In this document: piece by piece, positions 44,592 through 58,543 of the stretch | Position numbering within the stretch: the stretch's first letter is position 1 | Layout: every line of letters starts with the position of its first letter | Assembly (NCBI RefSeq): GCF_006912135.1 | Contig: NZ_VIRS01000003.1 | Span: 186,001-250,000, forward strand | Direction: 5' to 3' | Source of the DNA: Cryptosporangium phraense | GTDB taxonomy: Bacteria; Actinomycetota; Actinomycetes; Mycobacteriales; Cryptosporangiaceae | Length of the DNA stretch: 64,000 nucleotides | The notes under the pieces: generated by a model | Databases searched by the model: none | What the model saw: only the letters and a program-made list of their open reading frames with translations | Told to the model about the DNA's origin: nothing | Translations under genes and position numbers: made by a program

Positions 44592-45920
44592 TTAGGCGGC
44601 CGCGGTCGCGGGCTCGAGCGAGCCGAGGTGCTCGGCGATCTCGTCGAGCGGGTCGCGACGGGTCCGAAGTCCGGGCGCGGAACCGGTCGGCCGCTCCGGG
44701 CCCCAGAGCGATCCCTCGCCGGGCGCGACCGCCCCGGCCGCACCCGCCCCGACGCGGGCCACGTTCGCTTCAGCCGCGCTGGTCACCACCGCACGCGCGC
44801 CGCCCGCGCCCGCGCCGGCCGCCACCGTGCCGGCCGCGCCCGTGCCGCCCGCGCCGCCCGCGCCCACGTTGGCCGCCACCGTGTCGGGCGCAGCTGAAGC
44901 CGCCGATTCCGAAGCCATGGCAGCGGGCGCCATCGCAGCGGGCGCTGCCACAGCAACCGCGGCCGGAGCGGCCGCAGCCGCCGGAGCGGCCGCCGCTTCC
45001 GCCGCGGCTCGGCGGCGGTTCCGGATCAGGCGGGTTGCGATCACGAACACGCCGGGAAGCGCCGCCACCAGCGCGAACAACCCATAAACCACCGCGATCG
45101 TCAGACCCTCCTGACTACCGAGCCCCATCGCCCCGAACGCCCAGGCACAGAACCCCTCCCGAGGCCCCCACCCCCCGACACTCAACGGCAACGCCATCAC
45201 GACCAGCGCCAGCACCATCAACGGCAGCAGCGACCCGATCGGCGCCGACGACCCGGCCGCCCGCGCGGCCAGCACGAACGTCCCCAGGTGCGCGGCCACG
45301 ATCACAGCCGACGAGAACCCGACCCAGAGCCAGTTCCGCCGCCCCAGCAGCCCCCGCCGGACGTCCCGTCCCACCGCGGACGCCTTCCGGCGCAGCCCGG
45401 GCCGGGACACGACCACCAGAGCCAGCACGACGACGACCCCACCGGCCACCGGGACGAACCCGGACGGCACGTGCCGCCAGACGAACAGCAACAGTGCCGG
45501 GTTCAGCAGCAGCACGGCCCCACCGATCGCGAACATCGCGACCTGGCCCGCGAACCGCTCCAGCACGACCGCCCGCACACCGCGTCCGACGTCGCCGTTC
45601 TCGCGGCCGTTGCTCACGGCCCGGTGGACGTCGCCGAGCATGCCGCCGGGCAGCGTCGCGTTGAGGAACAGCGACTGGTAGTAGTCGGCGACCGCGGTGC
45701 GCAGCGGCAGCTTGATGCCGAGCCCGCGGGCGGCCAGGCACCAGCGCCAGGCGCTGGCCACGGTGGCGAGCAGGCCGATGCCGAACGCGGCGAGCAGCGT
45801 CCACCCGTTGATGACCCGCAGGCCGTCGAGGAACGCGCTGGACCCCAGACGCCAGAGCAGCACCGCGAGGATGCCGACTCCGCCGAGCGTCTTGGCCCAG
45901 CCGAAAACCCGCTGCTTCAT
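44592..45920 (-). CDS. LPG-synthase-TM / UPF0104-like multi-span membrane protein
   Basis: A 442-residue protein with about eight hydrophobic segments in residues 10-325, resembling the flippase-like membrane domain of lysylphosphatidylglycerol synthase and AglD-type proteins. Family landmarks are LPLRTAVADYYQSLFLNATLPGG (in two parts), ERFAGQVAMF and ALPLSVGGWGPREGFCAW. The last 115 residues are a low-complexity Ala/Gly/Pro-rich cytoplasmic tail, possibly repeat-expanded. ATG 45920 overlaps the methyltransferase stop (ATGA). It is the final gene of the long minus-strand run, where a lipid-linked intermediate could be flipped or held; that role is inferred. Confidence 0.85.
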   Translation of the reverse strand: MKQRVFGWAKTLGGVGILAVLLWRLGSSAFLDGLRVINGWTLLAAFGIGLLATVASAWRWCLAARGLGIKLPLRTAVADYYQSLFLNATLPGGMLGDVHRAVSNGRENGDVGRGVRAVVLERFAGQVAMFAIGGAVLLLNPALLLFVWRHVPSGFVPVAGGVVVVLALVVVSRPGLRRKASAVGRDVRRGLLGRRNWLWVGFSSAVIVAAHLGTFVLAARAAGSSAPIGSLLPLMVLALVVMALPLSVGGWGPREGFCAWAFGAMGLGSQEGLTIAVVYGLFALVAALPGVFVIATRLIRNRRRAAAEAAAAPAAAAAPAAVAVAAPAAMAPAAMASESAASAAPDTVAANVGAGGAGGTGAAGTVAAGAGAGGARAVVTSAAEANVARVGAGAAGAVAPGEGSLWGPERPTGSAPGLRTRRDPLDEIAEHLGSLEPATAAA

Positions 45921-46783
45921 CGTTGCGCCCCGGAAGTGGAATCGTTCGCCCGGCGTGGCAGGGCGAGGAGGTCGGTGTGGTGGAGGATGACCCGGAGTTC
46001 GCCCGTGGCGAGGGCGTCCAGTCGCCGGGTCAGGTAGTCGGTCGCGTCGAGCGACGGGCGCTGGGCCGCGGCCGCCGCGACCCAGCCGCGGAGCCACTCG
46101 TCGATCAGCGCCGCGTGCGAGGAGTCGAGCCGCCACGGTGTGGAGGCGACGTGCACGGTGGCTCCGCGGGACGCGAAGGCCTGGGCCGCGTACTCGCCGG
46201 CGTCCGGCCCGAGCAGTTCCCGGCCCGGGACGTGGGACCGCAGGTGCGCGGCGAATCCGTCCGCGAACTCGGCGTCCGACTCGTCGGACGGAGTGAACTC
46301 GACGGCGCCGGTCACCGAGAGCGTGAGCAACGCCGGGCAGCCGGCCGACGAGCAGGCCGCCGCCAGGCGGTCGACCTCGTCGCGGCTGAGCAGGTCGAGC
46401 AGAGCCGAGGCGGTGACCAGCGACGTCGAGAGCAGGTCGCCGGAGGTGAGCTCGGTCAGGTCGGCGTGCCGGGTCATGACCGTCACCGCGGACCCGTCGG
46501 ACGCGGTCGTGGCCGCCTGGGAGGCCGCGAACGCGAGCAGGTCGGCGTCGTGGTCCTGGAGGATCCAGCGCTGCGGGCCGGGCAGCTGCGGCGCCAGCCA
46601 CCGCTGCATCGAGCCGGTCCCGGTCCCGAGGTCCCGGATCAACAGGTCGCCGCTCAGCCGGGGCCGCAGCAGTGAGAGCAGCGACTGCGAGCGGGCCGCC
46701 GCGTCGGCAGGCTCACGGAGCCCGAGCCACGACGAGGCGTAGCGCGGTGCGTCGGTGAGGGTCAACGGGTCTCCGGTGCTCAT
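45917..46783 (-). CDS. SAM-dependent methyltransferase-like protein
   Basis: A 288-residue soluble protein. LLIRDLGTGTGSMQRWLAP near residues 47-65 is a SAM motif I, WILQDHDADLLAFA is motif II with its acidic residue, and STSLVTASALLDLLSRDEVD gives the motif IV region. Overlaps both neighbours by 4 bases, so it is tightly coupled to the CDP-alcohol phosphatidyltransferase and the membrane protein. The acceptor is unknown; a lipid or glycan head group is possible from context. Confidence 0.85.
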   Translation of the reverse strand: MSTGDPLTLTDAPRYASSWLGLREPADAAARSQSLLSLLRPRLSGDLLIRDLGTGTGSMQRWLAPQLPGPQRWILQDHDADLLAFAASQAATTASDGSAVTVMTRHADLTELTSGDLLSTSLVTASALLDLLSRDEVDRLAAACSSAGCPALLTLSVTGAVEFTPSDESDAEFADGFAAHLRSHVPGRELLGPDAGEYAAQAFASRGATVHVASTPWRLDSSHAALIDEWLRGWVAAAAAQRPSLDATDYLTRRLDALATGELRVILHHTDLLALPRRANDSTSGAQR

Positions 46784-47550
46784 GAGTGCTGGCCTACCCC
46801 GATGAACGGCCGCGACGCGGAAGCGGTTCGAATCGAAACCGCGCGCCGCCGGTACAGGAACCGGATGTCCCGGCCGAACGACCAGCTGACGACCCCCAGC
46901 GACAACCCCACCAGCACCCCCGCGGCCGCCACCGGCAGCAGCCCGGACGCGGCCACCACCAGCACGAACCCCAGCGCCGCGGCGATCGCGCTGCGCGACT
47001 GCCGCCGGGGCAGGTCGCCCCGCAGCCACGGCAGCGCCCACCCGGCCACCACGTACGCGTACCGGAGCGCGCCGATCGCGATCACCCAGCCGCCCAGCGA
47101 CTGCGCCAGGTAGACCGTCAGCACCAGGGCCAGGATCGAGTCGACCTCACCGTCGAAACGCGCGCCCAGCGCCGTCGTGGTGCCGGTCCGGCGGGCCACC
47201 TGGCCGTCGATCCCGTCCATGAGCCAGGCCACGAACGCGACGCCCACCAGCGCGCCGACGTGCACCGAGGTCGTGAACGAGTCGGCCACCAGCGCGGTGA
47301 CCCCGCCGACCAGCGTGCAGCGGGCCAGCGTCACCGCGTTGGCCGGACCGAACGACTCCGCGCCCGACCGGTGCAGCGCGCCGGTGAGGAACACCCAGGT
47401 GGCGATCGAGAACGCGACGCCGGCCAGCCACCCGGTGGGGGCGAGCCCGACGGTGCCGGCCAGAACGCCGAGAACGCCGAACTGCGCGACCACTCCGAGG
47501 ACGGGCCCGAGAACCGGACCCGTCGTGCTGACTCGAACGTCGACCGTCAC
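46780..47550 (-). CDS. CDP-alcohol phosphatidyltransferase family protein
   Basis: Integral membrane enzyme that would transfer a phospho-alcohol moiety from a CDP-activated donor. A 256-residue protein with about six membrane segments. The full signature DG-x2-AR-x8-G-x3-D-x3-D is present in MDGIDGQVARRTGTTTALG continuing ARFDGEVD (near residues 110-136), so catalysis is expected. GTG 47550 lacks a strong SD. The HAD gene ends 85 bases upstream; the methyltransferase overlaps downstream. The alcohol acceptor is unknown and need not be a housekeeping one, because this gene sits inside a specialised cluster. Confidence 0.92.
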   Translation of the reverse strand: MTVDVRVSTTGPVLGPVLGVVAQFGVLGVLAGTVGLAPTGWLAGVAFSIATWVFLTGALHRSGAESFGPANAVTLARCTLVGGVTALVADSFTTSVHVGALVGVAFVAWLMDGIDGQVARRTGTTTALGARFDGEVDSILALVLTVYLAQSLGGWVIAIGALRYAYVVAGWALPWLRGDLPRRQSRSAIAAALGFVLVVAASGLLPVAAAGVLVGLSLGVVSWSFGRDIRFLYRRRAVSIRTASASRPFIGVGQHS

Positions 47551-47635
47551 TGATCCACCCGTTTCGCCCAGGCGCGACGTTGTGTCGCGCGCCGGGAAAC
47601 ACGGGGCTGCGCTCAGGAAGGTTCAGGGTTTCGCG

Positions 47636-48304
47636 TCAAACAAGCGACAGAACTTGAGAAAGCCCGCGCGGACCCGTCGCCGCCGGCCGGGGCAGCAGGA
47701 ACACGTGCATGCCGGCGGCGATCGCCCCGGAGTCGGTGAGCGGGTTGTCACCGACCATCAGACAGCGCGCCGGATCCACGTCGAGCTGCTCCGACGCGGC
47801 CAGGAACACCGGCACCGCCGGCTTGCACATCCCGTGCTGGAACGACATGACGACGCCGTCCACGTAGGCCATCACGCCGAGCGCGTCCAGGGCCGGACGC
47901 AGGTCGAAGCCGGTATCGCTGACGATCCCGATCTTCGTCCCGCGTTCGGCCAGCGCGCGCAGCGTCGGGACCGTGTCCTCGAACGCCTCCCAGGAGGCGG
48001 CGTCGATCGTCAGCGCGTAGAGCCGTTCGCTCAGGCCGGGCGCGAGCGTCTCGCACCCGGCCGCGGTGTAGAGCGCGGTCCACACGTCGTGGTGTTTCTC
48101 GGTGGACAGGTCCCGGCCCTTGGCCATCTCCTCGGCCGTGCTGCTGCGGTCGAGGACCCGCTTCCACACGTCGGCCACTTCGCCCGGGTCCAGCGGGGCC
48201 GCGCCCAGGTCGTCGGCTGCGCGGTGCAGCAGCGTCTCGCCGCTGCCGGACAGCCGGATCAGCGTGTCACCCGCGTCGAACAGGACTGCCTCGAACTGGC
48301 TCAC
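47636..48304 (-). CDS. HAD superfamily hydrolase
   Basis: A 222-residue phosphatase-like protein. Motif I is VLFDAGDTL with nucleophile Asp10, motif II is in GIVSDTGFD, the motif III Lys is in HGMCKP, and motif IV reads CLMVGDNPLTDSGAIAAGM. The cap domain lies at about residues 15-90. GTG 48304 overlaps the glycosyltransferase stop as GTGA. In this cluster it may dephosphorylate a biosynthetic intermediate. Confidence 0.92.
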   Translation of the reverse strand: MSQFEAVLFDAGDTLIRLSGSGETLLHRAADDLGAAPLDPGEVADVWKRVLDRSSTAEEMAKGRDLSTEKHHDVWTALYTAAGCETLAPGLSERLYALTIDAASWEAFEDTVPTLRALAERGTKIGIVSDTGFDLRPALDALGVMAYVDGVVMSFQHGMCKPAVPVFLAASEQLDVDPARCLMVGDNPLTDSGAIAAGMHVFLLPRPAATGPRGLSQVLSLV

Positions 48305-49371
48305 GTCCGCGTCTCCTCCACTACGGCCCGGATCTCAGTGAATAGCACGCGAGCGGTGTCGTCCCAGTTCGGAAAGGATTCCGATCGGGTCTTCGCCGCC
48401 GCGGCCATCTCCCGGCGACGCGGCTCGTTCTCGGCCAGCGTCCGCAGTGCGGAGGTGAGCCCCCGGACGTCGCCGGGCGGCACCGCGAACCCCTCGACGC
48501 CGTCCCGGGCCAGGTGGGGCAGGTTCCCCGCGTCCCAGCCGACGACCGGCAGCCCCTCGGCCATCGCCTCGCTGTACACGGTCCCGTACGGTTCGCGAAG
48601 GCTGGCCAGCGCGAACACGTCGGCCGACCGGTAGTACCCGACGACCTCGGCCGGGCTGACGAGCCCGTGCGTCTTCACCCGGCCGTCGAGGTCCGGCCGG
48701 GTCAGCCGGGCGCTGACCTTGGCCGCGTACTCCGGATCGACGTTCGGATCGCCCACCAGGTGCAGGGTCACCGCCTCCGGCGGCAGCTTCGCGACCGCCT
48801 CCAGCAGGTCGAGCAACCCCTTCCGCTCGACCCAGTTGCCGACCGAGAGCACCGCGATCCGCCGTCCCTGCCGCAGGTCGCCCTGCGGCGCGACCGGCGC
48901 GTCGGCCGGGTCGCGGCCGGGTGCCACGACCGTCAGCCGGTCCGCGGGCATTCCCGACGCGCGGAGGGTGTCCGCCAGGTCCTCGCTGGCGATCAACAAT
49001 TTGGACGCGTAGCGGTACGCGCGCCGATCAAGGACTTTTTGGACGTATTGCCGGACGCCCGCGTGGTCGATGCCGCCCGGAGGCTGGTGGAGCATGCCGA
49101 CGATCGGGGGGAGCCCCTTCGCCGGGAGCCACGGGCCGACGAACGCCGCCGCGATGCTGTCGAGCAGGATCGCGTCGGCGTCGCGCAGCCGGCCGAGCAG
49201 ACCGCGGCCGGCGGCGACCGACGCCGGGAACGACCGCTCCGGGACCGAGACGAAGTCGAGGCGGGCGTCGTTCGCGGCCGCCCGGTCGGCGACGCGCCGG
49301 TGGTAGAGGTACCCACCGGTCATCGTCGCCGGGTCGCCGAGGGTCAGCAGCGATACCTGTAGCGGGCTCAG
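48301..49371 (-). CDS. Glycosyltransferase family 4-like protein, probable CTG start
   Basis: A GT-B glycosyltransferase of about 356 residues. The C-terminal donor domain has VLSVGNWVERKGLLDLLEA, then ADVFALASLREPYGTVYSEA and MAEGLPVVGWDAGNLP, with the GT4 E-x7-E type arrangement. The first ATG (49323) falls after the essential first Rossmann strand; the frame stays meaningful upstream as LQVSLLTLGDPATMTGGYLY. The only start-like codon there is CTG 49371, overlapping the PTPS stop as CTGA, just as neighbours overlap by ATGA or GTGA. If CTG is not used, the product would start at 49323 with 340 residues. The donor and acceptor are unknown. Confidence 0.85.
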   Translation of the reverse strand: MSPLQVSLLTLGDPATMTGGYLYHRRVADRAAANDARLDFVSVPERSFPASVAAGRGLLGRLRDADAILLDSIAAAFVGPWLPAKGLPPIVGMLHQPPGGIDHAGVRQYVQKVLDRRAYRYASKLLIASEDLADTLRASGMPADRLTVVAPGRDPADAPVAPQGDLRQGRRIAVLSVGNWVERKGLLDLLEAVAKLPPEAVTLHLVGDPNVDPEYAAKVSARLTRPDLDGRVKTHGLVSPAEVVGYYRSADVFALASLREPYGTVYSEAMAEGLPVVGWDAGNLPHLARDGVEGFAVPPGDVRGLTSALRTLAENEPRRREMAAAAKTRSESFPNWDDTARVLFTEIRAVVEETRT

Positions 49372-49760
49372 GCGAGCACGCCCGAGTAGCCGCCGAACTC
49401 GCTCGCGTTCTCGTAGACGCGGACCGCGAGGTCGGCGCCGGGGGTCTTGATCGCGGCGCCGATCTTCCCGTGCACCCAGAACGCGAACGACTCGACGGTG
49501 ACCGCCTCGGTGCCCAGCTCCGGGGCGACGATCTCGTCCAGATCCGCGTCCTGGAGCCGCCCGGTGAGTTCTTCGAGCGCTCCGACCAGGACGTCCAGGT
49601 CGACGACCATGCCCTTGTCGTCGAGTTCCTCGCGGGACACCACCAGCGTCAGCCGGTAGTCGTGGGAGTGCCGTTCGCCTTCCGGCGGAGGCATGTCGGG
49701 CATGGTGTGGAATGCGCGGACCTCGCGCTCGGTGCCGGTTTGGTACATGCGTTCATTCAT
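49368..49760 (-). CDS. 6-pyruvoyl-tetrahydropterin synthase / QueD family homologue with Cys-to-Glu change
   Basis: A 130-residue T-fold protein. The zinc ligands are visible as FH (near 18-19) and HSHDY (near 32-36). The catalytic Cys found four residues before the first His of the HxH motif in PTPS and QueD is Glu here (EGERHSHD). Such a change is known in PTPS-III-type enzymes that make 6-hydroxymethyl-dihydropterin. The second half, VTVESFAFWVHGKI and AVRVYENASEFGGY, holds the conserved Glu near the C-terminus. The start at ATG 49760 overlaps the dehydrogenase stop; ATG 49748 is also possible. The function within the cluster is unknown. Confidence 0.85.
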   Translation of the reverse strand: MNERMYQTGTEREVRAFHTMPDMPPPEGERHSHDYRLTLVVSREELDDKGMVVDLDVLVGALEELTGRLQDADLDEIVAPELGTEAVTVESFAFWVHGKIGAAIKTPGADLAVRVYENASEFGGYSGVLA

Positions 49761-50721
49761 ACCGGAGGGCGGCGTGCAGCACTCCGGCGTCGCCGCGATC
49801 GAGGGTGGCATATGCCTCAGCCGCGTCCGGAAAAGCGAACTCGGTGGTGGCCAGGGCCTTCAGCGGGAGCACGTCGAGAAGGTCGCGGGCGGCCTCCCGG
49901 CGGCGGGCGTTGGTCCAGCGGCCCTGGGCCGCGTAGGGGATCGTCGAGACCTGGCTGCTGCGGATCGTCAGACGGCGCCGGTGGAAGTGCTCACCGAGGG
50001 GGAGCGCAACCGGCTTCGTGCCGTACCAGGACCCGACGAGCGCGGTGCCCTCGTGCGCGAGGAGCGAGAGGCCACCGGCCAGCGCGGCCGGGGCGCCGGA
50101 CGTCTCGACCAGCAGCGAGACGCCGGTCCCGACCCGCGCCGGAAGCTCGTCGGGGTGCGCGGTGCGCAGGCCGAGCGACTCGGCGAGCGCCCGGCGGGCC
50201 TCGCGCGGCTCGGCCGCGACGACCTGCGCGCCGGCCCGGGCGAGCAGCAGCGACGTGAGCAGCCCGATGGCGCCCAGGCCCAGCACGACGACCGGTTCCT
50301 CGAGGACCGGGCCGGCGTCCAGGCTGAGCTGGAGCGCGGTCTCGACCAGCGGGAACATCGTCCCGAGGCGCGGATCGAGGTGATCGGGGAGGACGACGAC
50401 GTCGTCGGCCGCGGCGCTGAACCGGTCCTGGTGCGGGTGGAACGCGAAGACGGTCTTCCCGGCCAGCGGGCCCTGTTCGACGACGCCGACGCAGCTGTAG
50501 CCGTACTGGAACGGGTAGCTGAACCCGCCGTCGGCCAGCGCGGACAGCGTCTCGTCGCGCTCGGTGTCGGGGTTCAGCTCCCCGCGGTAGGCGAGCAGTT
50601 CGGTGCCCGCGCTGATGCCGGAGAAGCGCGTCCGGACGAGGAGGTCCGCGGGCTCCGGATCCGGAACCGGACGGACCTCCACCTCGCGCGGGGCGGTGAA
50701 CCAGACGGCGTGTGTGCTCAT
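49753..50721 (-). CDS. MDR-type dehydrogenase without zinc ligands (BchC-like)
   Basis: A 322-residue medium-chain dehydrogenase. The NAD(P) motif VVVLGLGAIGLLTSLL is near residues 140-155. The N-terminal catalytic region reads SGISAGTELLAYRG, as in BchC-like proteins, with no zinc-binding Cys. The structural-zinc four-Cys lobe is missing too, so it is a short, probably zinc-independent member. Overlaps DUF4185-like upstream (ATGA) and the PTPS-like gene downstream. It probably reduces or oxidises an intermediate made with the PTPS-like protein. Confidence 0.88.
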   Translation of the reverse strand: MSTHAVWFTAPREVEVRPVPDPEPADLLVRTRFSGISAGTELLAYRGELNPDTERDETLSALADGGFSYPFQYGYSCVGVVEQGPLAGKTVFAFHPHQDRFSAAADDVVVLPDHLDPRLGTMFPLVETALQLSLDAGPVLEEPVVVLGLGAIGLLTSLLLARAGAQVVAAEPREARRALAESLGLRTAHPDELPARVGTGVSLLVETSGAPAALAGGLSLLAHEGTALVGSWYGTKPVALPLGEHFHRRRLTIRSSQVSTIPYAAQGRWTNARRREAARDLLDVLPLKALATTEFAFPDAAEAYATLDRGDAGVLHAALRYE

Positions 50722-51890
50722 GGCTCGAACGTAACTTTCGTCAGGCGGAGTTCACCGCTGTCGGCGTGGAAGTAGGTCAGGTACTGGGTGAGGCCGTCGT
50801 GTTCGGCGTACTCGGGGTGGGCGAACGCGGCGTAGTTCGGTCGGCGGCCGCTCGTCGTCAGGATCGGGAACGCGGCCGACCACGGGCCGGTGGGGGAGCC
50901 GCCGATCTGGGCCCGGATCGTGTCGTCGACGCCCGGCAGGTAGACGTTGAGCCAGCCCTCGAGGGCCGGGTCGTAGAACACGGTGTTGCCGGCCGAGCCG
51001 GCCCGGATCGTGCCGACGGCCCGGTCCGGGTTGGACGACCAGCCGGTGCCGGTCCAGAAGCGCCAGCGCAGCCGGTCGGTGATCCGGTCGAGCGGGGCCC
51101 GGGCCAGCCGGCAGACGGAGTCGCAGTCGCCGTACACGTAGACGTCGTCCCCGACGACGACCGCGGCGGCGGCGTAGGCGGCCGACGGCGGGAAGAACAT
51201 CGTCGGGTCGGGGCCCTCGATGCTCCGGACGTCCTGGCCGCGTTCGGCGGGCAACCGGCGGATCTCGCGCGTCCGCAGGTCGACGGCGAGGATGCCGGTG
51301 CCGAGCGCGCGCCCGAACGGGCCCGAGCACGGCGTTCCCTCCGCGCCGCTCCGGCAGAGCTTCGTGTAGAAGACGAGCAGCCGGGCCCGGTGCGGGTCGG
51401 CGATCACCGGTCCGGGCCAGAACGCGAACGAGGCCCCGCAGTAGACGTCGCCGGCGGGCGTGCAGCCGGTCGCGTGCCGCTGCTGGAACGCCGCTTCGGC
51501 CGGGGTGTGGCCGAACAGCGCGGCCGGGTCGCGTCCGCTCGTGCCGAAGACGTCGGAGCTGGTCAGCGTGATCCCGTCGGCGGCCCGCAGGTCGCGGGTG
51601 GACGCGGCCGAGTTCGACAGGAAGCCCTCCGGGTCGCGCAGCACGGTGTCGGCGAAGACCCAGGCCGACCGGTCGCCGTAGCGGGTGCTCTGGCCGTCGT
51701 CCCGGGCGACGACCCGCCCGTTCTGGGTGAGCGGGCCGAGGTCGGCCGCGTGCACGGACGGGATCGGCGGCACCGCGTCGCGGACGGTCTCGGCCCCCTC
51801 CGGCGTCCGGCGCACGACGCCGAAGCCCACGACGACGACGATCACGAGCGCGACCAGCACGGCGATGATGCGCCGCTCCGGTACCGCCAC
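50718..51890 (-). CDS. Secreted or anchored DUF4185-like beta-propeller protein
   Basis: A 390-residue protein with a signal-anchor at about residues 8-27 and an extracellular part that looks like a five-bladed propeller of the DUF4185 / glycosidase-like type: SAWVFADTVL near 75-84, SFAFWPGPVI, VFYTKLC, VYVYGDCDSVCRL and the C-terminal LTQYLTYFHADSGEL. Such proteins may bind or cleave glycans; no catalytic triad is certain. GTG 51890 follows GAGGGC. Overlaps the dehydrogenase start. The MFS gene ends 27 bases upstream, so they are likely one transcript. Confidence 0.75.
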   Translation of the reverse strand: MAVPERRIIAVLVALVIVVVVGFGVVRRTPEGAETVRDAVPPIPSVHAADLGPLTQNGRVVARDDGQSTRYGDRSAWVFADTVLRDPEGFLSNSAASTRDLRAADGITLTSSDVFGTSGRDPAALFGHTPAEAAFQQRHATGCTPAGDVYCGASFAFWPGPVIADPHRARLLVFYTKLCRSGAEGTPCSGPFGRALGTGILAVDLRTREIRRLPAERGQDVRSIEGPDPTMFFPPSAAYAAAAVVVGDDVYVYGDCDSVCRLARAPLDRITDRLRWRFWTGTGWSSNPDRAVGTIRAGSAGNTVFYDPALEGWLNVYLPGVDDTIRAQIGGSPTGPWSAAFPILTTSGRRPNYAAFAHPEYAEHDGLTQYLTYFHADSGELRLTKVTFEP

Positions 51891-51917
51891 GCCCTCAACG
51901 TACCGGCTGGTAGGTCC

Positions 51918-53144
51918 TCAGGCGGCGCTGCTCGAGTCGCAGGCCGTCTCGCCGAACCGGGCCGGGGCGGGCGTCGTCGTCGGCGTCGTCGCGATCGGTG
52001 CCGAACCGCGCGCGACGATCGTCCGCAGGAGCACGAGGCCGAGCACGGAGCAGCACGCGGCGGCCGCGAACGCGGCCCGGTAGCCGCCGAGGGCGGCGGC
52101 CTGACCGACGACCAGCCCACCGAGGCCGGTGGCGACGTCGAAGAACATCGTGAACGTGGACACGGCGGCGGCCTGCTCGGACTCCTTGACCCGGCTGATC
52201 GTCAGCGCCATCAGGCCGGGGTACTGGAACGCGATCCCGGCGCCGAGCGGCACGATGCCGACGTAGATCCAGACCTCGGACGGTGCCGCGGCGATGATCA
52301 CCAGCCCCAGCACGACCCCGATCGTGGCCAGCGTGCCGGCCCGGACGGCGCCGATCCGGTCGGGCAGCCCGCCGGCGAAGATCCGGGCCGCCAGCACGAC
52401 GACCGAATAGGCGAGGAACATCCACGACGGATTGCTGCCTCGCAACTCGTCGACGTAGAGCGGGATGTAGGCGTTGAACGCGACGACGCCGATGATGCCG
52501 AGGGCCAGCACCGCGCCGGGCCAGAGGGCCGCGGAGTGGAAGCGCGGAGCGCGTTCGCCGCGGGCCCGGTGGTTGGCGACCAGCAGCATCGGCAGCGTGC
52601 CGAGCAGTTGCAGCAGGCCGGCGACGACGAACGTCGGCCCGACGCCGAACGTGTCGTAGCAGGGCTGGCCGATCACCGGCCCCAGCCCGATGCCGAGGTA
52701 CGGCGCGACCGAGAAGTAGCTGGACGCCTTCGAGCGCTGCTCCGGCGGGGCGGTCGCCATCACCCGGGCGATGCAGGCGACGAACATCAGCGCCAGCGCC
52801 GCTCCCGACAGCAGCCGGAAGAGCAGCAGGACCGGCAGGTTCCCGGCCAGCGCGTAGGCCGCGGTCGAGACCGCACCGGCGACGCCGCCGATCAGGACCA
52901 GCGGCTGGAAGCCCAGGTTCTGGATGGCCCGGGCGGTGAACGGGCGGACCATCACCGCCGACACCGCCATGATCCCGACGACGACGCCGATCGCCAGGTC
53001 GCCGCCTCCCAGCGACTGCACGAAGTACGGCAGCACCGGCAGCGTCATGCCGAGGGAGAGAAACGCGCCGAGCGCGGCGACGAGGAGGAGGGCGAACTCC
53101 TTGGTGATCAGTCGGGCCGAGGACCGGTCACTCGGTGTCGCCAT
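51918..53144 (-). CDS. MFS transporter (DHA1-like)
   Basis: A 408-residue carrier with 12 predicted membrane segments. It starts EFALLLVAALGAFLSLGMTL and keeps the YFVQSLGGGDLAIG first loop; the second half has GLPDRIGAVRAGTLATIG as motif A. GGAGAG lies 8 bases before ATG 53144. It sits in the long minus-strand run, 27 bases upstream of the DUF4185-like gene and 88 bases after the secreted protein. Export of the pathway product is a possible role, but no substrate is indicated. Confidence 0.88.
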   Translation of the reverse strand: MATPSDRSSARLITKEFALLLVAALGAFLSLGMTLPVLPYFVQSLGGGDLAIGVVVGIMAVSAVMVRPFTARAIQNLGFQPLVLIGGVAGAVSTAAYALAGNLPVLLLFRLLSGAALALMFVACIARVMATAPPEQRSKASSYFSVAPYLGIGLGPVIGQPCYDTFGVGPTFVVAGLLQLLGTLPMLLVANHRARGERAPRFHSAALWPGAVLALGIIGVVAFNAYIPLYVDELRGSNPSWMFLAYSVVVLAARIFAGGLPDRIGAVRAGTLATIGVVLGLVIIAAAPSEVWIYVGIVPLGAGIAFQYPGLMALTISRVKESEQAAAVSTFTMFFDVATGLGGLVVGQAAALGGYRAAFAAAACCSVLGLVLLRTIVARGSAPIATTPTTTPAPARFGETACDSSSAA

Positions 53145-53232
53145 ACGAAGTCTCTCCGCCTCTCAAATCACGCGATGCCTCCCAAACCTTGTATCCGGGG
53201 CGCGGACTTCGCAGTGGACTCTGTGGTGCAGC

Positions 53233-54141
53233 TCACCTGATTGGGTGCGCGGTCCAACTACGCGGATCGCTGAGCATCCCGGCCGGGTGGGCGCTCGCGG
53301 CGATCCGGAGGCACTCGGCCCGCAGCGCGCCGACCGTGGACGACCGATCGTCGGCGGCCCGGCAGCGGATCCGGAGCTGGGTCTTCGGGTCGAGCGCGAA
53401 CGTGACCGTGCGTTCGTCGCCGATCAGGATCTCGCGGGCCGGGCGGCCACCCAGCGTGGTCGTGGGTGGGTCCGCGCGCTCCGGAATCGCCGAGACCTCG
53501 ATCTGCGCGTCCGGGTCGGTCGGCGAGGAGAACGTGACGCCCGCGGTGAGGTCGCCGAACCGGTCCCGGACGACGTCGGTGCGGAGCGTCACCAGGTCGC
53601 GCGGGCGGCTCGTCGTCAGGGGGAGCGCGACCGGGGTGCCGTCGCCGACCCGGACCGAGCGGGCGATCCGGGTGGCGGTGCCGAGCGGGTCGGACAGGCC
53701 GGAGATCTCGACCTGGGCCACGGCGCCGGGAGCCCACTCCCAGCGCAGGAAGTGCACCGCGCGGTCGGTGTACCAGCGGGAGGATTTCGCACCGATCGGT
53801 GGTCCGGGCTGGACGGTGGCGTCGGTGAAATACGCCGGCGGCGGCGCGCCCGGCGGGACGATCGAGACGAGGACGTCGCTGGTCGCGTGGCTCGCGTAGA
53901 GCTCCTCGAGTACCGGCGTCGTCGAGGAGCCGCGGGCGGTGAGCGTTTCCGGCAGCCAGCCGACGGTCAGCCGCGACCGCAGCGGGTCGAAGCTCTCCGG
54001 GGCGGCGGTGGCGGCGGCCGAGGCCGGGGTGGGATCGGGGACGTGTGCCTCGTCGTCGGCCCGGGGGCTCGGCTGCAGCAGGAGACCGAAGCCGGCCAGC
54101 AGGGCGGCCGAGACGCCGGTGATGATCAGTAGCCGCCGCAC
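53233..54141 (-). CDS. Anchored or secreted protein of unknown function (302 aa)
   Basis: Unrecognised. GTG 54141 opens an N-terminal membrane segment (LLIITGVSAALLAGFGLLL, about residues 4-22), then a Pro/Ala-rich linker to about 50, then an extracellular domain with two apparent repeats: one begins RLTVGWLPETLTARG and the other is around LRTDVVRDRFGDLTAGVTF. The VGWxPxx motif is also found in proteins encoded next to SigE-type ECF sigma factors, but no sigma gene is adjacent. Two Cys near the end could form a disulfide. It lies 12 bases after the PAP2 gene, so is probably co-transcribed with it. Confidence 0.8.
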   Translation of the reverse strand: MRRLLIITGVSAALLAGFGLLLQPSPRADDEAHVPDPTPASAAATAAPESFDPLRSRLTVGWLPETLTARGSSTTPVLEELYASHATSDVLVSIVPPGAPPPAYFTDATVQPGPPIGAKSSRWYTDRAVHFLRWEWAPGAVAQVEISGLSDPLGTATRIARSVRVGDGTPVALPLTTSRPRDLVTLRTDVVRDRFGDLTAGVTFSSPTDPDAQIEVSAIPERADPPTTTLGGRPAREILIGDERTVTFALDPKTQLRIRCRAADDRSSTVGALRAECLRIAASAHPAGMLSDPRSWTAHPIR

Positions 54142-54153
54142 GCCCGCCAGTGT

Positions 54154-54855
54154 TCAGGAAACGGCGAAACGCGCGCGGACCTCCCAGAGACGGGCGATCG
54201 CCAGGCCGGCGAACGCGACGAGAACGCCACCGACGACATCGAGGACCCAGTGGTGGCCGGTCACCAGCACGACGACGCCGGTCACGGCGGCGTGCAGCCA
54301 GCCCAGAGCGCGCGCCCACCAGCGGGCGGTGAGCGCGCTGACCGCCAGCGCGCACCAGACCGCCCAGCCGACGTGCATGCTCGGGAACGCGGCGTACGGG
54401 TTCTCGGCCCCGGAGATGACCGGGGCGTTCGTCAGGCCCTCGAGCAGCCGGGGCGGCGCGGACGGCCAGGCCCAGGAGATCGCGACGCCGATCAGGCTGG
54501 CCGCGACGAACGCGGAGCGGAAGCGGTAGTAGGCGGCCGGGTCGAACAGCACGAGCAGCCCGAAGACGACGAACGGGACCGCGAAGTGGCCGGTGACGTA
54601 GTAGGCATTGGCGATCGCGGTGCGGAGGGGGTCCTCGGCCCACCAGGTGCTGAGCAGGCGTTCGAGGCCGAAGTACTCGAGGGATCGGATCGTCTTGGCG
54701 TGCGCGTAGGCGGCCTCGGTGCGGTCGGCCGAGCCGAGGCCGACCGCCAGGTAGGCGCCGATCCCCAGGGCGATCAGGGCGAGTTCGGTCGCGATGACGC
54801 GCACCCACTGGCGTGGGGGTGCCGCCACCGCGGACGGGATCGTCGTGGTCGCCAC
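54154..54855 (-). CDS. PAP2 / Aur1-like membrane phosphatase
   Basis: A 233-residue integral membrane protein with about six segments. The acid-phosphatase motifs AAFPSMHVGWAVW (near 153-165) and TGHHWVLDVVGG (near 199-210) supply the two catalytic His and the Asp; the first motif is reduced (APPRLL), as in the inositol-phosphoceramide synthase-like (PAP2_3) group. It would hydrolyse a lipid phosphate or transfer a phospho-alcohol outside the membrane. GTG 54855 has AAGGAGG 7 bases upstream. It leads the 44.6-54.9 kb run of lipid and glycan-like enzymes. Confidence 0.9.
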   Translation of the reverse strand: MATTTIPSAVAAPPRQWVRVIATELALIALGIGAYLAVGLGSADRTEAAYAHAKTIRSLEYFGLERLLSTWWAEDPLRTAIANAYYVTGHFAVPFVVFGLLVLFDPAAYYRFRSAFVAASLIGVAISWAWPSAPPRLLEGLTNAPVISGAENPYAAFPSMHVGWAVWCALAVSALTARWWARALGWLHAAVTGVVVLVTGHHWVLDVVGGVLVAFAGLAIARLWEVRARFAVS

Positions 54856-54914: not shown

Positions 54915-56255
54915 TCAGGCGGGGGCGGGCACGTGACGCGGCGCACTGTTCTCCCGGGGTTTGCGGCCCAGGTCGGCGGTCGGGACGTGGGCGGTCTCGC
55001 GGCCGGACGCGGCGGCCACGGCCGAGACCACACAGAGGACGGCCAGGAAGATCGCGACCGGCAGCCAGCCGCCGCGTCCGTCGCCGGCCAGCGCGGCCCC
55101 GACGGTCGGGGCGAACCCGCCGATCGCGAACCCGAGCTGGGTCCCGATCGCCATGCCGGACAGCCGGACCCGGGTCGTGAACATCTCGCCGTAGAACGCC
55201 GGCCAGGTCGAGTTCGGCGCGCTGTAGACGACGCCCGAGAGCAGGATGCCGACCGCGAAGATCAGCGGCCAGTTGCCGTGTCCGATCGCCGAGAGGTACG
55301 CGAACATCAGCGCGGCCGAGCCGAGCGTGCCGCCGATCATGACCGGTTTGCGGCCGATCCGGTCGGCCAGCGTGGCCCAGAGGGGGATCGCGCCCAGCGC
55401 GACGACGTTGGCCAGCACGCCGACCCAGAGCAGCGTCGACTTCTCCAGCCCGACCGTGTCGGCGCCGAACGAGAGCGCGTAGACGCCGAAGATCGTGCTG
55501 ACGCTGGCCACCATCGCGACGAGCACGACCCGGATCACCGAGGCCCAGTGGTCGCGGAACAGCACGGCCAGCGGGGCCTTCGGGACCTGGTCCTTGGCCG
55601 CTTCCTGGACGAATTCCGGCGTCTCCTCCATCCGTCGCCGTATCAGGTACCCGACCGCCATGACGACGACGCTGAGCAGGAACGGGATGCGCCAGCCCCA
55701 GGTGAGCAGGCTGTCGTCGGGTAACGCGGCGACCGGGAGGAACACGGCCGTGGCGAGGATCTGGCCCATCTGGGTGCCGTTGAGCGTGAAGCTGGTGAAG
55801 AAGCCGCGGCGGTGCTCGGGGGCGTGTTCGAGCGTCATCGAGTTCGCGCTGGCCTGTTCGCCGGCTGCTGAGAAGCCCTGGGCCAGCCGCAGCGTGACCA
55901 GCAGGATCGGCGCGAGGACGCCGACCTGGCCGTACGTCGGCAGGCAGCCGACCAGGAACGTCGAGACGCCCATCAGGATCAGCGTCAGGACGAGGACGCG
56001 TTTGCGGCCGAACTTGTCGCCGACGTGGCCGAGGACGAACGCGCCGATCGGGCGGGCGGCGTAACCGACGCCGAACGTGGCGAGCGCGAGGAGCGTGCCG
56101 GTCGCCGGGTCGGAGTCGGCGAAGAACACCTTGTTGAAGACCAGGGCCGCGGCCGTGCCGTAGATGAAGAAGTCGTAGTACTCGAGCGCGCTGCCGATCC
56201 AGGCGGCGAGGGCGGCCTTGCGGGGCTGAGCGGTCGGAACGGGAGGTGCGGTCAC
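54915..56255 (-). CDS. MHS family MFS importer, likely shikimate/quinate or related acid
   Basis: A 446-residue metabolite:H+ symporter of the ShiA/KgtP/ProP group. Marks are ALEYYDFFIYGTAAALVFNK near residues 24-43, GHVGDKFGRKRVLVLTL near 75-91, and LRLAQGFSAAGEQASAN. GTG 56255 has AGGGAG 6 bases upstream; the frame extends to 56291. Its upstream region carries a 19-bp element (56309-56327) nearly identical to the one before the shikimate dehydrogenase gene, which ties it to that pathway. The two loci flank the same TetR gene. Substrate assignment is therefore from regulation plus family. Confidence 0.9.
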   Translation of the reverse strand: MTAPPVPTAQPRKAALAAWIGSALEYYDFFIYGTAAALVFNKVFFADSDPATGTLLALATFGVGYAARPIGAFVLGHVGDKFGRKRVLVLTLILMGVSTFLVGCLPTYGQVGVLAPILLVTLRLAQGFSAAGEQASANSMTLEHAPEHRRGFFTSFTLNGTQMGQILATAVFLPVAALPDDSLLTWGWRIPFLLSVVVMAVGYLIRRRMEETPEFVQEAAKDQVPKAPLAVLFRDHWASVIRVVLVAMVASVSTIFGVYALSFGADTVGLEKSTLLWVGVLANVVALGAIPLWATLADRIGRKPVMIGGTLGSAALMFAYLSAIGHGNWPLIFAVGILLSGVVYSAPNSTWPAFYGEMFTTRVRLSGMAIGTQLGFAIGGFAPTVGAALAGDGRGGWLPVAIFLAVLCVVSAVAAASGRETAHVPTADLGRKPRENSAPRHVPAPA

Positions 56256-56308
56256 GAGGGGCTCCCTGGGTGTATGCGGCGGTGCAGACACTGAGCAGCG
56301 GGTCGCGC

Positions 56309-56922: not shown

Positions 56923-57591
56923 CTAAGCCCGGCCGACGTGGGCCGTCAGGTACTCGAGGACCAGGTCGCCGATCATGCGGCGGTGGTGCTCGGTGAGGGC
57001 GGGGTCGAGCATGTCGCGGCCGAAGATCGCCTCGAACGTGTACCGGTTCGCGGTCCGGAACACGCAGAACGCGCTGATGACCATGTGGACGTCGAGCGCG
57101 TCGACGTCGGCGCGGAACAGGCCGGCGGCGCGGCCCCGGTCGAGGATGCCGGACAGCACGTCGACGGCCGGGGCGGCCAGCCCGGCCAGCACCGGTGACG
57201 TGCGCAGGTGCTCGGCGTGGTGGACGTTCTCGATGCTCACCAGCCGGATGAACGCCGGGTGGGACTGGTGGTGGTCGAACGTCAGCTCGGCGAGCGCGCG
57301 CATGGCCCGGGCCGGGTCGAGATGGTCGACGTCGAGATCCTGCTCCAGGCGGCGGATGCCGGCGTAGGCCCGTTCGAGCACGGCGACGTAGAGGCCCTGC
57401 TTGGAACCGAAGTAGTAATAGATCATCCGCTTGGTGGTGCGGGTTCGGGCAGCGATCTCGTCGACCCGGCCGCCGGCGTAACCGCGGTCGGCGAACTCCT
57501 CGGTCGCAGCCTCCAGGATCTCGCCGCGCGTGCGTTCGGCGTCGCGCTGACGTTCCGGGGGCGCATCAGCGGCGGTCACGCATCCGACCAT
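56923..57591 (-). CDS. TetR family regulator of the quinate/shikimate genes
   Basis: A 222-residue repressor. The HTH is at about residues 25-65 (EFADRGYAGGRVDEIAART and TKRMIYYYFGSKQGLYVAVL); the C-terminal domain is of the TetR_C type with AELTFDHHQSHPAFIRLVS. The start is ATG 57591 with GGAAGAG upstream; GTG 57579 is an alternative. It diverges from the shikimate dehydrogenase operon, and a 19-bp element lies in the gap and again before the importer. It replaces the LysR regulator used for the corresponding genes in Corynebacterium. Ligand probably a pathway intermediate. Confidence 0.9.
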   Translation of the reverse strand: MVGCVTAADAPPERQRDAERTRGEILEAATEEFADRGYAGGRVDEIAARTRTTKRMIYYYFGSKQGLYVAVLERAYAGIRRLEQDLDVDHLDPARAMRALAELTFDHHQSHPAFIRLVSIENVHHAEHLRTSPVLAGLAAPAVDVLSGILDRGRAAGLFRADVDALDVHMVISAFCVFRTANRYTFEAIFGRDMLDPALTEHHRRMIGDLVLEYLTAHVGRA

Positions 57592-57630
57592 AGCGTTGGC
57601 TCTTCCTCTGGGCGTTTTCCTGCGGTACAA

Positions 57631-57649
57631 GTAACTATCCGGTTCATTA
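57631..57649 (+). promoter_or_regulatory. Operator upstream of the shikimate dehydrogenase operon
   Basis: GTAACTATCCGGTTCATTA differs from the importer element at only three central positions; its right half-site CGGTTCATTA is unchanged, while the left half is less symmetric. It lies 16-34 bases before GTG 57665 and 40-58 bases before the TetR start, so one site could control both directions. Confidence 0.8.
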
Positions 57650-57664
57650 TCTCGGAGGGTTCCC

Positions 57665-58543
57665 GTGGCGGTCCGCTCGCTCACCTCGCGCCGGCCGGTG
57701 CGCGTCGGCCTGATCGGGTCGGGGATCGGCCCGTCGCTCTCGCCCGCGCTGCACGAGCGGGAGGCGTCGCTGCTGGGGCTCGACTACACGTACCGGCGGC
57801 TCGACCTGGACGAGCTGGGCCGGGCGCCGTCGGACGTCGGGGGACTGGTGGCGGAGGCCCGACGCGCGGGGTTCCAGGGGCTGAACATCACGCACCCCTG
57901 CAAGCAGCTGGTGATTCCGTTCCTCGACGAATTGTCGGAGGCGGCGGGCAAGATCGGGGCGGTCAACACGGTGGTGTTCACCGCCGACGGGCGCTCGGTG
58001 GGGCACAACACGGACTGGTCGGGGTTCCGAGACGGGCTGGTTCGCGGGCTGCCGGACGTCCGAATGGGGGTGGTGGTGCTGCTGGGGGCGGGAGGCGCGG
58101 GCGCGGCCGCGGCCCACGCGCTGCGTGCGTTGGGCGTGGGGACCGTGCACGTGGTGGACGTCGATCTCGAGCGTGCGCGGTCGCTGGCCGACCGGCTGCA
58201 CACCGTGGCCCATCCGGTCGGCGAGCTCGCGGACGTGCTGGCCGGGGCCGACGGGCTGGTGCACGCGACCCCGGTCGGGATGGCCGAGCATCCGGGCCTG
58301 CCGCTGGCCGCGGAGCTGCTGCGGCCGGGGTTGTGGGTCGCCGAGATCGTGTACCGCCCGCTGGAGACCGAGTTACTGCGGGCCGCCCGGGCCGCCGGCT
58401 GCGCGGCGCTGGACGGCGGCGGAATGGCCGTGCACCAGGCCGCGGCGGCGATGCGCCTGTTCGCGGGCGTCGAGCCGGACGCCGACCGGATGGTGCGCCA
58501 CCTCCGCGAGCTGATCTCGGCGGAGGCCGGCCGTGCGCGCTGA
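57665..58543 (+). CDS. Shikimate/quinate dehydrogenase (catabolic AroE-type)
   Basis: Oxidises shikimate or quinate to the 3-dehydro compound with NAD(P). A 292-residue AroE-fold enzyme. The substrate serines are in GPSLSPALHE (near residues 22-31), the catalytic Lys in NITHPCKQ (near 77-84), the Asp in HNTDWSGF (near 117-124), and the Rossmann motif VLLGAGGAGAA near 138-148. GTG 57665 has GGAGG 6 bases upstream. The next gene overlaps by 11 bases and encodes the dehydratase acting on the product. The coupling and the operator argue for a catabolic rather than biosynthetic role. Confidence 0.92.
   Translation: MAVRSLTSRRPVRVGLIGSGIGPSLSPALHEREASLLGLDYTYRRLDLDELGRAPSDVGGLVAEARRAGFQGLNITHPCKQLVIPFLDELSEAAGKIGAVNTVVFTADGRSVGHNTDWSGFRDGLVRGLPDVRMGVVVLLGAGGAGAAAAHALRALGVGTVHVVDVDLERARSLADRLHTVAHPVGELADVLAGADGLVHATPVGMAEHPGLPLAAELLRPGLWVAEIVYRPLETELLRAARAAGCAALDGGGMAVHQAAAAMRLFAGVEPDADRMVRHLRELISAEAGRAR

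Follow-up and report, generated by a model that had tools for sequence, protein, structure and literature searches.

Four types of the PTPS family are marked by motif in the relevant passages of two papers, by CxxxHGH (PTPS-I), CxxxxxHGH (PTPS-II), ExxHGH (PTPS-III) and FGPAQ (PTPS-IV) (PMC5041015; PMC5445326), and the 561 PTPS-IV sequences considered in the latter neighbour genes of the families PF00925 and PF01872, the first of which is there called GTP cyclohydrolase I/FolE2 and bears the Pfam name GTP_cyclohydro2. The PTPS-IV passages of both papers name no CDP-alcohol transferase, methyltransferase, GT4 glycosyltransferase or LPG-type genes. The structure of SCO6650 of Streptomyces coelicolor has been solved (3d7j), under the PDB label of an uncharacterized protein. 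Our subject here is a run of eleven genes in a 64,000-nucleotide stretch of the 8.46 Mb genome of Cryptosporangium phraense (contig NZ_VIRS01000003.1, positions 186,001 to 250,000; hereafter the window), which an earlier note on this DNA had taken for a single membrane glycoconjugate pathway. Seven of these genes, at window positions 44592-50721, encode a medium-chain dehydrogenase (MDR), a PTPS-like T-fold protein, a GT4 glycosyltransferase, a HAD-family phosphatase, a CDP-alcohol phosphatidyltransferase family protein, a methyltransferase and an LPG-synthase-type membrane protein, and are best read from their sequences as a divergent form of an actinobacterial pathway otherwise built around SCO6650-type (PTPS-IV) genes. 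The window set is a new variant of this uncharacterised gene set, real, conserved and only partly catalogued; among open-licence papers in PMC, judged by title and abstract, we recognised none on the whole set or its membrane half and, like the earlier note, no named pathway with this combination.

By motif, the putative PTPS-like protein of the window is outside PTPS-I to PTPS-IV, the four types to which the comparison extended. Its ExxxHxHDYR motif is present in all 16 aligned window-type rows and in three genus relatives, whereas FGPAQ is found in 46/46 SCO6650-type loci (30 short and 16 long, some genomes counted twice) and in 0/16 window-type rows. The same 16 rows contain neither the CxxxHGH of PTPS-I/QueD nor the ExxHGH of PTPS-III, nor the HGH of the PTPS-II motif, and the window protein scores 31 bits against the NCBIfam QueD model, for which the cut-off is 89. 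Invariant throughout the 16 rows are His18, His31 and His33, which we take to be the zinc site, and Glu117, presumably the pterin-binding glutamate. The predicted structure is a T-fold (predicted local distance difference test, pLDDT, 90.6), and VIA-align places SCO6650 first against it (Z 16.8 over 126 residues, root-mean-square deviation 2.1), with the next entry at Z 14.9. A five-sequence profile likewise ranks SCO6650 ahead of QueD and of all other solved relatives (E 2.5e-4). The window protein is, by profile and predicted fold, nearest to SCO6650.

Gene order is common to all four genus genomes examined (the window and G001-G003): the three relatives share MFS-PAP2-secreted-MFS-DUF4185-MDR-PTPS-GT4-HAD-CDP, although the G001 contig stops inside the CDP-alcohol gene. 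On the longer contigs of the other two, the methyltransferase and LPG-type genes are retained as well, the methyltransferase of L012 being broken at an ambiguous stretch. Because synteny inside one genus is weak evidence, the search was extended beyond it. The PTPS alignment, run against named genomes, yielded 15 window-type loci, hosted by Geodermatophilaceae, Virgisporangium, a Nocardioidaceae metagenome-assembled genome (MAG) and other MAGs, several of them on contigs that end early; with 16 SCO6650-type loci they make up 31 loci outside the genus, some of them short, and all absence counts apply to the stretches examined. The neighbourhood check proposed in the earlier note, for co-occurrence of the PTPS-like, MDR, GT4 and CDP-alcohol genes across actinobacteria, brought out a conserved set that also includes the methyltransferase and LPG-type genes. 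The core genes recur together in rearranged orders and in several families, and all of them except the HAD gene have counterparts in this recurring set; HAD homologues, by similarity to the window protein, are present in two extra-genus loci only, L017 and L018. The former, from Virgisporangium, holds all seven core genes together with the CDP-alcohol gene on the opposite strand, and the latter is apparently the same as a contig of genome G108 in our 345-genome class sample, length and match positions being identical. An MDR gene adjoins PTPS in 14 of the 15 window-type loci, and an MDR homologue lies near PTPS in 30/31 loci outside the genus. Seven window-type loci carry the window-type GT4 (at least 53%) and five another GT4 type (at least 52% to that of L022, L022 included), while CDP-alcohol, LPG-type, methyltransferase and HAD genes were found in 6, 6, 2 and 2 of the 15, respectively.

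The four genes upstream of this core behave differently. PAP2, secreted protein, MFS and DUF4185 genes stand beside the core in all three other genus loci and, at E 1e-5, in 0/31 extra-genus loci, on which count the single eleven-gene pathway of the earlier note was rejected; judged by conservation, the run is not one unit but splits between its four upstream and its seven downstream genes. Around the window-type PTPS genes two further arrangements were seen. In several Geodermatophilaceae loci there is an FkbM-type methyltransferase gene, which directly follows PTPS in L022 (L022:10423-11325) and lies near it in L016, L019, L023, L024, L026, L028 and L030. Genome G108 has window-type MDR-PTPS-GT4-HAD on contig C170 (L018) and methyltransferase-LPG-RibD_C-sulfatase-CDP on contig C291 (L099), where the end of an L022-type GT4 gene adjoins the latter set.

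The SCO6650-type loci present the same set in its other form. With the SCO6650 stretch as query, a SCO6650-type protein was found at E 1e-8 in 46 of the 345 class genomes and none in the source genome; the 16 stretches compared come from 15 of these 46. Every one of them has an MDR gene, 35-43% identical to that of the window, and an L022-type GT4 gene, and most have LPG-type (14/16), CDP-alcohol (12/16) and methyltransferase (10/16) genes, with a sulfatase-like gene in seven. L072 has another HAD gene, and in L065 an inositol-phosphatase-family protein is encoded beside the CDP-alcohol gene. In L069 a single 779-aa protein (L069:1415-3754) unites a CDP-alcohol transferase with a membrane sulfatase-like domain; the sulfatase match of 24.8 bits falls just below the Pfam cut-off of 25, and we take the domain to be LtaS/phosphoethanolamine-transferase-like. 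A sulfatase-like partner for the genus was considered and not used: homologues of 42-45% identity occur in three of the four genus genomes, outside the stretches examined around the cluster, and not in the source genome. L063, Streptomyces-like, has a PTPS 94% identical to the SCO6650 stretch and the order PTPS, GT4, methyltransferase, LPG-type, creatininase (on the other strand) and GTP cyclohydrolase II, the creatininase-family gene taking the place of RibD_C. Counted off gene by gene, SCO6650-SCO6655 would match this order, with SCO6652 as the methyltransferase and SCO6655 as the GTP cyclohydrolase. In the S. coelicolor data given in PMC3610822, SCO6652 shows log2 changes of 0.8 at 24 h, 4.3 in the aerial stage (48 h) and 4.1 in the spore stage (72 h), the last two being rises. 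SCO6655 is listed in PMC2853524, along with the other GTP cyclohydrolase, SCO2687, among the genes found anticorrelated with predicted flux, the majority of them, according to its authors, stationary-phase induced.

Whether the membrane genes belong with the rest can be approached through co-occurrence. We posit that the conserved genes very probably form one pathway; a somewhat unlikely alternative holds that the product of MDR-PTPS-GT4-HAD is a soluble glycoside of a pteridine or pyrimidine, akin to the pterin glucosides of cyanobacteria, and that the CDP-alcohol, methyltransferase and LPG-type genes are a separate lipid or wall module travelling along. Such a division would suit the HAD-CDP gap of 77-96 bp kept within the genus, the seven window-type loci that keep MDR-PTPS with the window-type GT4, in six of which no CDP-alcohol, methyltransferase or LPG-type gene was found in the stretch examined, and the occurrence of pterin glycosides in cyanobacteria and Chlorobium, as described in passages of PMC13259868 and PMC5683033. 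Against it stands the class sample, where no methyltransferase match and few CDP matches occur without a PTPS. The SCO6650-type PTPS is present there in 46 genomes and the window-type in 2, the same and only two that hold the window-type GT4 (E 1e-60). The methyltransferase model (E <=1e-12) is matched in 41/345 genomes, all 41 with one of the two PTPS types, and 40 of these 41 have it within 10 kb of PTPS, the largest of these distances being 5,178 bp. The CDP model (E <=1e-20) is matched in 49 genomes, 46 of them with PTPS and 41 of those 46 within 10 kb. Counted by genus, with genera treated as independent, the methyltransferase accompanies PTPS in 16/16 (Fisher P 9e-16) and the CDP-alcohol gene in 21/23 (Fisher P 1e-20). 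The latter lies on either strand and in varied orders, yet mostly close by, which again argues against two modules. In the phylum sample the methyltransferase was found in 6/198 genomes, all of them from the same class.

The nature of the substrate is suggested by a further pair of neighbours. A gene resembling the fused GTP cyclohydrolase II-RibD_C gene of L017 lies, by similarity, near PTPS in 14/15 window-type loci, the assignment having been checked with Pfam in L017 and L022, and GTP cyclohydrolase II and/or RibD_C occurs in 14/16 SCO6650-type loci (L069 and L070 matching the RibD_C part only), and so in 28/31 loci outside the genus. Most related loci carry one or both of these genes, and it is chiefly on them that a GTP-derived product, which we on balance think probable, is based. 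Copies of GTP cyclohydrolase II are present elsewhere in all four genus genomes examined; the source genome has a second copy on contig C17, found also in three relatives, and another, longer frame taken as RibBA. The C17 copy was tried as a cluster gene and rejected, the surrounding 16 kb showing no match to window cluster proteins below E 0.1. The RibBA-type copy was the nearer of the two to five of six cluster cyclohydrolases compared, the exception, L068, being nearer to the C17 copy. SCO6655 reportedly stops at a formyl intermediate (the FAPy route); we do not rely on this route, since the tyrosine of the normal GTP cyclohydrolase is kept in 28/28 sequences.

Two alternatives dispute this substrate. 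It seems improbable that the T-fold protein and MDR have ceased to act on pterins and that the pathway yields a sugar-phosphate or polyol glycolipid, with the GTP cyclohydrolase a bystander: the lack in the window PTPS of the Cys of the PTPS-I and PTPS-II motifs, and of a cyclohydrolase gene in the genus cluster, would fit, yet the invariance of the three histidines and Glu117 and the prevalence of GTP cyclohydrolase II and/or RibD_C outside the genus both speak against it. Least probable is that the set provides the pyrimidine of an F420-like (deazaflavin) or riboflavin-like (flavin) cofactor, with the membrane genes incidental, for although GTP cyclohydrolase II and RibD_C are riboflavin/F420 precursor enzymes, no F420-specific gene appeared among the selected neighbours put through Pfam, the source genome has elsewhere the longer frame taken as RibBA, and F420 and flavins are not known to need a GT4, CDP-alcohol transferase or flippase. 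The PTPS-IV passages of PMC5041015 do attribute to these proteins, citing unpublished work, a part in archaeal F420 synthesis.

We tentatively propose that the product of the gene set is a membrane compound bearing sugar, made from a GTP-derived precursor that resembles a pterin or a pyrimidine. GTP would be opened to a 2-amino-pyrimidinone ribosyl phosphate, or its ribityl form after reduction, the GTP cyclohydrolase II product being reduced or hydrolysed before it is bound by the T-fold protein. This protein would hold the 2-amino-pyrimidinone or pterin through its conserved glutamate and, together with MDR, modify the ring or side chain, after which GT4 would glycosylate the molecule and the methyltransferase would methylate it. 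A phosphodiester made by the CDP-alcohol transferase may then link the polyol end with a lipid; the acceptor could be a polyol phosphate, as in PgsA-type enzymes, and HAD could remove a leftover phosphate. The LPG-type protein would carry the lipid-linked product across to the outer leaflet. For the window genus, cyclohydrolase activity would have to be drawn from outside the cluster, either from the second copy, which stands alone, or from the RibBA encoded elsewhere. The whole scheme, in which a GTP-derived pyrimidine or pteridine polyol is glycosylated, methylated, lipid-linked and flipped, is possible rather than probable. More speculative and somewhat unlikely is its furthest extension, in which the cluster would make membrane phospholipids of a new class. 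Their head group would be a pteridine or pyrimidine polyol derived from GTP and bearing methyl and sugar groups; exported to the outer leaflet, such lipids would be widespread in actinobacteria and, in Streptomyces, would be made in aerial hyphae and spores.

Several observations weigh against the kinship with the SCO6650 set and the pathway drawn from it. GTP cyclohydrolase II and RibD_C are absent from the three genus loci and none was seen in the window run, and around the C17 copy there is no cluster gene, the open reading frames (ORFs) there looking unrelated. The single window PTPS query ranks QueD and human PTPS above SCO6650, none of them significant, and in Foldseek the lowest E-value belongs to a QueD chain, followed by SCO6650. 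The window GT4 is only about 30% identical to the SCO6650-type GT4. HAD is found by similarity in only 2/15 window-type and 0/16 SCO6650-type loci; CDP-alcohol, LPG-type and methyltransferase genes are missing from 9, 9 and 13 of the 15 window-type loci, several ending early, and all three were not found in the SCO6650-type loci L071 and L072. In the class sample, seven PTPS genomes lack the methyltransferase and two the CDP model, whereas three genomes have the CDP model with neither PTPS and in five PTPS genomes it does not lie within 10 kb of PTPS. The methyltransferase and CDP models were themselves built from cluster members, at thresholds loose enough that they should also catch close relatives elsewhere. 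The membrane part could, finally, act on something else.

Among the eight genomes (5 + 3) with CDP-alcohol genes away from PTPS, six were examined, that is, all except G130 and G332. G263 and G062 have no other cluster gene nearby and G030 only a sulfatase-like gene; G291 has an LPG-type gene and, about 5 kb on, a GT4 gene, and G108 has GT4, methyltransferase, LPG-type, RibD_C and sulfatase-like genes nearby. In L102 (contig C8 of G176, a genome with neither PTPS; about 9.1-9.7 kb and 13.6-15.8 kb), the only related genes near a weak CDP match are homologues of the MFS protein upstream of the run (65%) and of its TetR neighbour (59%), a few kb away.

The architecture of the run itself (Table 1) bears out much of the earlier description. 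All eleven ORFs were confirmed on the minus strand, with Pfam agreeing for nine, and seven of the ten junctions are, as claimed, overlaps or gaps below 30 bp, the distances from PAP2 to LPG being 12, 88, 27, -4, -8, 44, -4, 85, -4 and -4 bp. The 44-bp gap between PTPS and GT4 may not be real, since the GT4 frame runs on upstream of the ATG at 49323, coding VSLLTLGDPATM, and relative L011 has an ATG at the upstream position; the true start is probably the one near 49371.

Table 1. Genes of the minus-strand run, in order of transcription, with window coordinates.
Predicted product	Coordinates	Strand	Evidence and remarks
PAP2-family phosphatase	54154..54855	-	Pfam PAP2_3 1.3e-34; genus-specific neighbour
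Secreted/membrane protein, probable anti-sigma-like gene remnant	53233..54141	-	longer version in relatives L010-L012; outside pathway
MFS transporter	51918..53144	-	Pfam MFS_1 2.8e-35; genus-specific neighbour
DUF4185 propeller	50718..51890	-	Pfam DUF4185 5.7e-13; in run, outside conserved pathway
Zinc-less medium-chain dehydrogenase (MDR, BchC-like)	49753..50721	-	Pfam ADH_zinc_N 1.4e-10
PTPS/T-fold protein, separate subgroup	49368..49760	-	Pfam PTPS 1.3e-14, 54.7 bits (cut-off 22.4)
GT4 glycosyltransferase	48301..49323, start probably upstream near 49371	-	Pfam Glycos_transf_1 3.1e-27
HAD-family phosphatase	47636..48304	-	Pfam Hydrolase 1e-17
CDP-alcohol phosphatidyltransferase family membrane protein, complete signature	46780..47550	-	Pfam CDP-OH_P_transf 2.3e-12
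Class I SAM (S-adenosylmethionine) methyltransferase	45917..46783	-	weak Pfam match and predicted fold
LPG-synthase-TM (flippase-like) membrane protein	44592..45920	-	Pfam PF03706 LPG_synthase_TM 4e-33

The methyltransferase reaches 25.1 bits against Methyltransf_25, below the cut-off of 27, and its predicted model (pLDDT 83) has a fold like that of class I SAM methyltransferases; the secreted protein has no Pfam match. The CDP-alcohol signature, called full in the earlier note and which we take to be D-x2-D-G-x2-A-R-x8-G-x3-D-x3-D, is complete in the window protein, and D112, D115, G116, A119, R120, G129, D133 and D137 are invariant in the alignment. MDR is termed zinc-less on the apparent lack of zinc ligands, judged against the usual motif, and the LPG-type protein has a long, Ala-rich, low-complexity C-terminal tail (window 44592-45090). 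In the relatives a sigma-factor-like gene is followed by one for an anti-sigma-like membrane protein (L010:13600-14320, L011:4130-4760, L012:13700-14450; family calls made by eye), of which the window secreted protein (53233-54141) is the probable, shortened remnant; the sigma gene has been lost, since only 12 bp separate the secreted gene from PAP2. Directly upstream of the run, on the same strand, are an MFS gene (54915-56291) and a TetR gene (56923-57684), and near them a protein with TIM-barrel and HPPD domains (58533-60632), presumably 3-dehydroshikimate-dehydratase-like, the three likely forming a separate aromatic-acid module.

Contrasting these proteins with described systems places the window set more closely. 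QueD (PTPS-I), the biopterin enzymes of PTPS-II and the folate-related PTPS-III share the T-fold with the window PTPS (Z about 12.6-14.9 for solved members), but their CxxxHGH, CxxxxxHGH and ExxHGH motifs are absent from it. MDR reaches 77 bits against the NCBIfam bchC model, short of the cut-off of 291. Solved-structure searches with the CDP-alcohol, GT4, MDR and sulfatase-like proteins returned motif-level or broad family matches, or none. PgsA and PIP synthase offer a likeness in the complete CDP-alcohol signature and, for their pairing with a phosphatase, in the HAD gene of the run and the inositol-phosphatase-type gene of L065, whereas the six NCBIfam models listed score far below cut-off, the best at 23.7 bits against 180. 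Proteins of the MprF/AglD type resemble the LPG-type protein through its PF03706 match, but NCBIfam MprF gives 34 bits against a cut-off of 600 and no aminoacyl-transferase domain was matched. The pterin glycosides of cyanobacteria and Chlorobium would be made in a similar way, by a PTPS-family enzyme and a glycosyltransferase acting on a pterin; we know of no CDP-alcohol or flippase genes there. The closest kin is the SCO6650/PTPS-IV set. It differs in the FGPAQ motif of its PTPS, in place of ExxxHxHDYR, and in lacking a histidine that the window PTPS keeps, in a GT4 of another type and a divergent MDR, and in the GTP cyclohydrolase, RibD_C and sulfatase-like genes that the genus cluster is without, the latter having its own additional HAD. 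Both sets nonetheless combine MDR, a PTPS-type T-fold protein, GT4, a methyltransferase, an LPG-type protein and a CDP-alcohol transferase, if not all in each SCO6650-type locus. The window reveals a second form of the SCO6650 gene set, distinguished by another PTPS; the methyltransferase and CDP-alcohol transferase travel with both forms, thereby tying a likely GTP-derived precursor to enzymes of membrane lipids.

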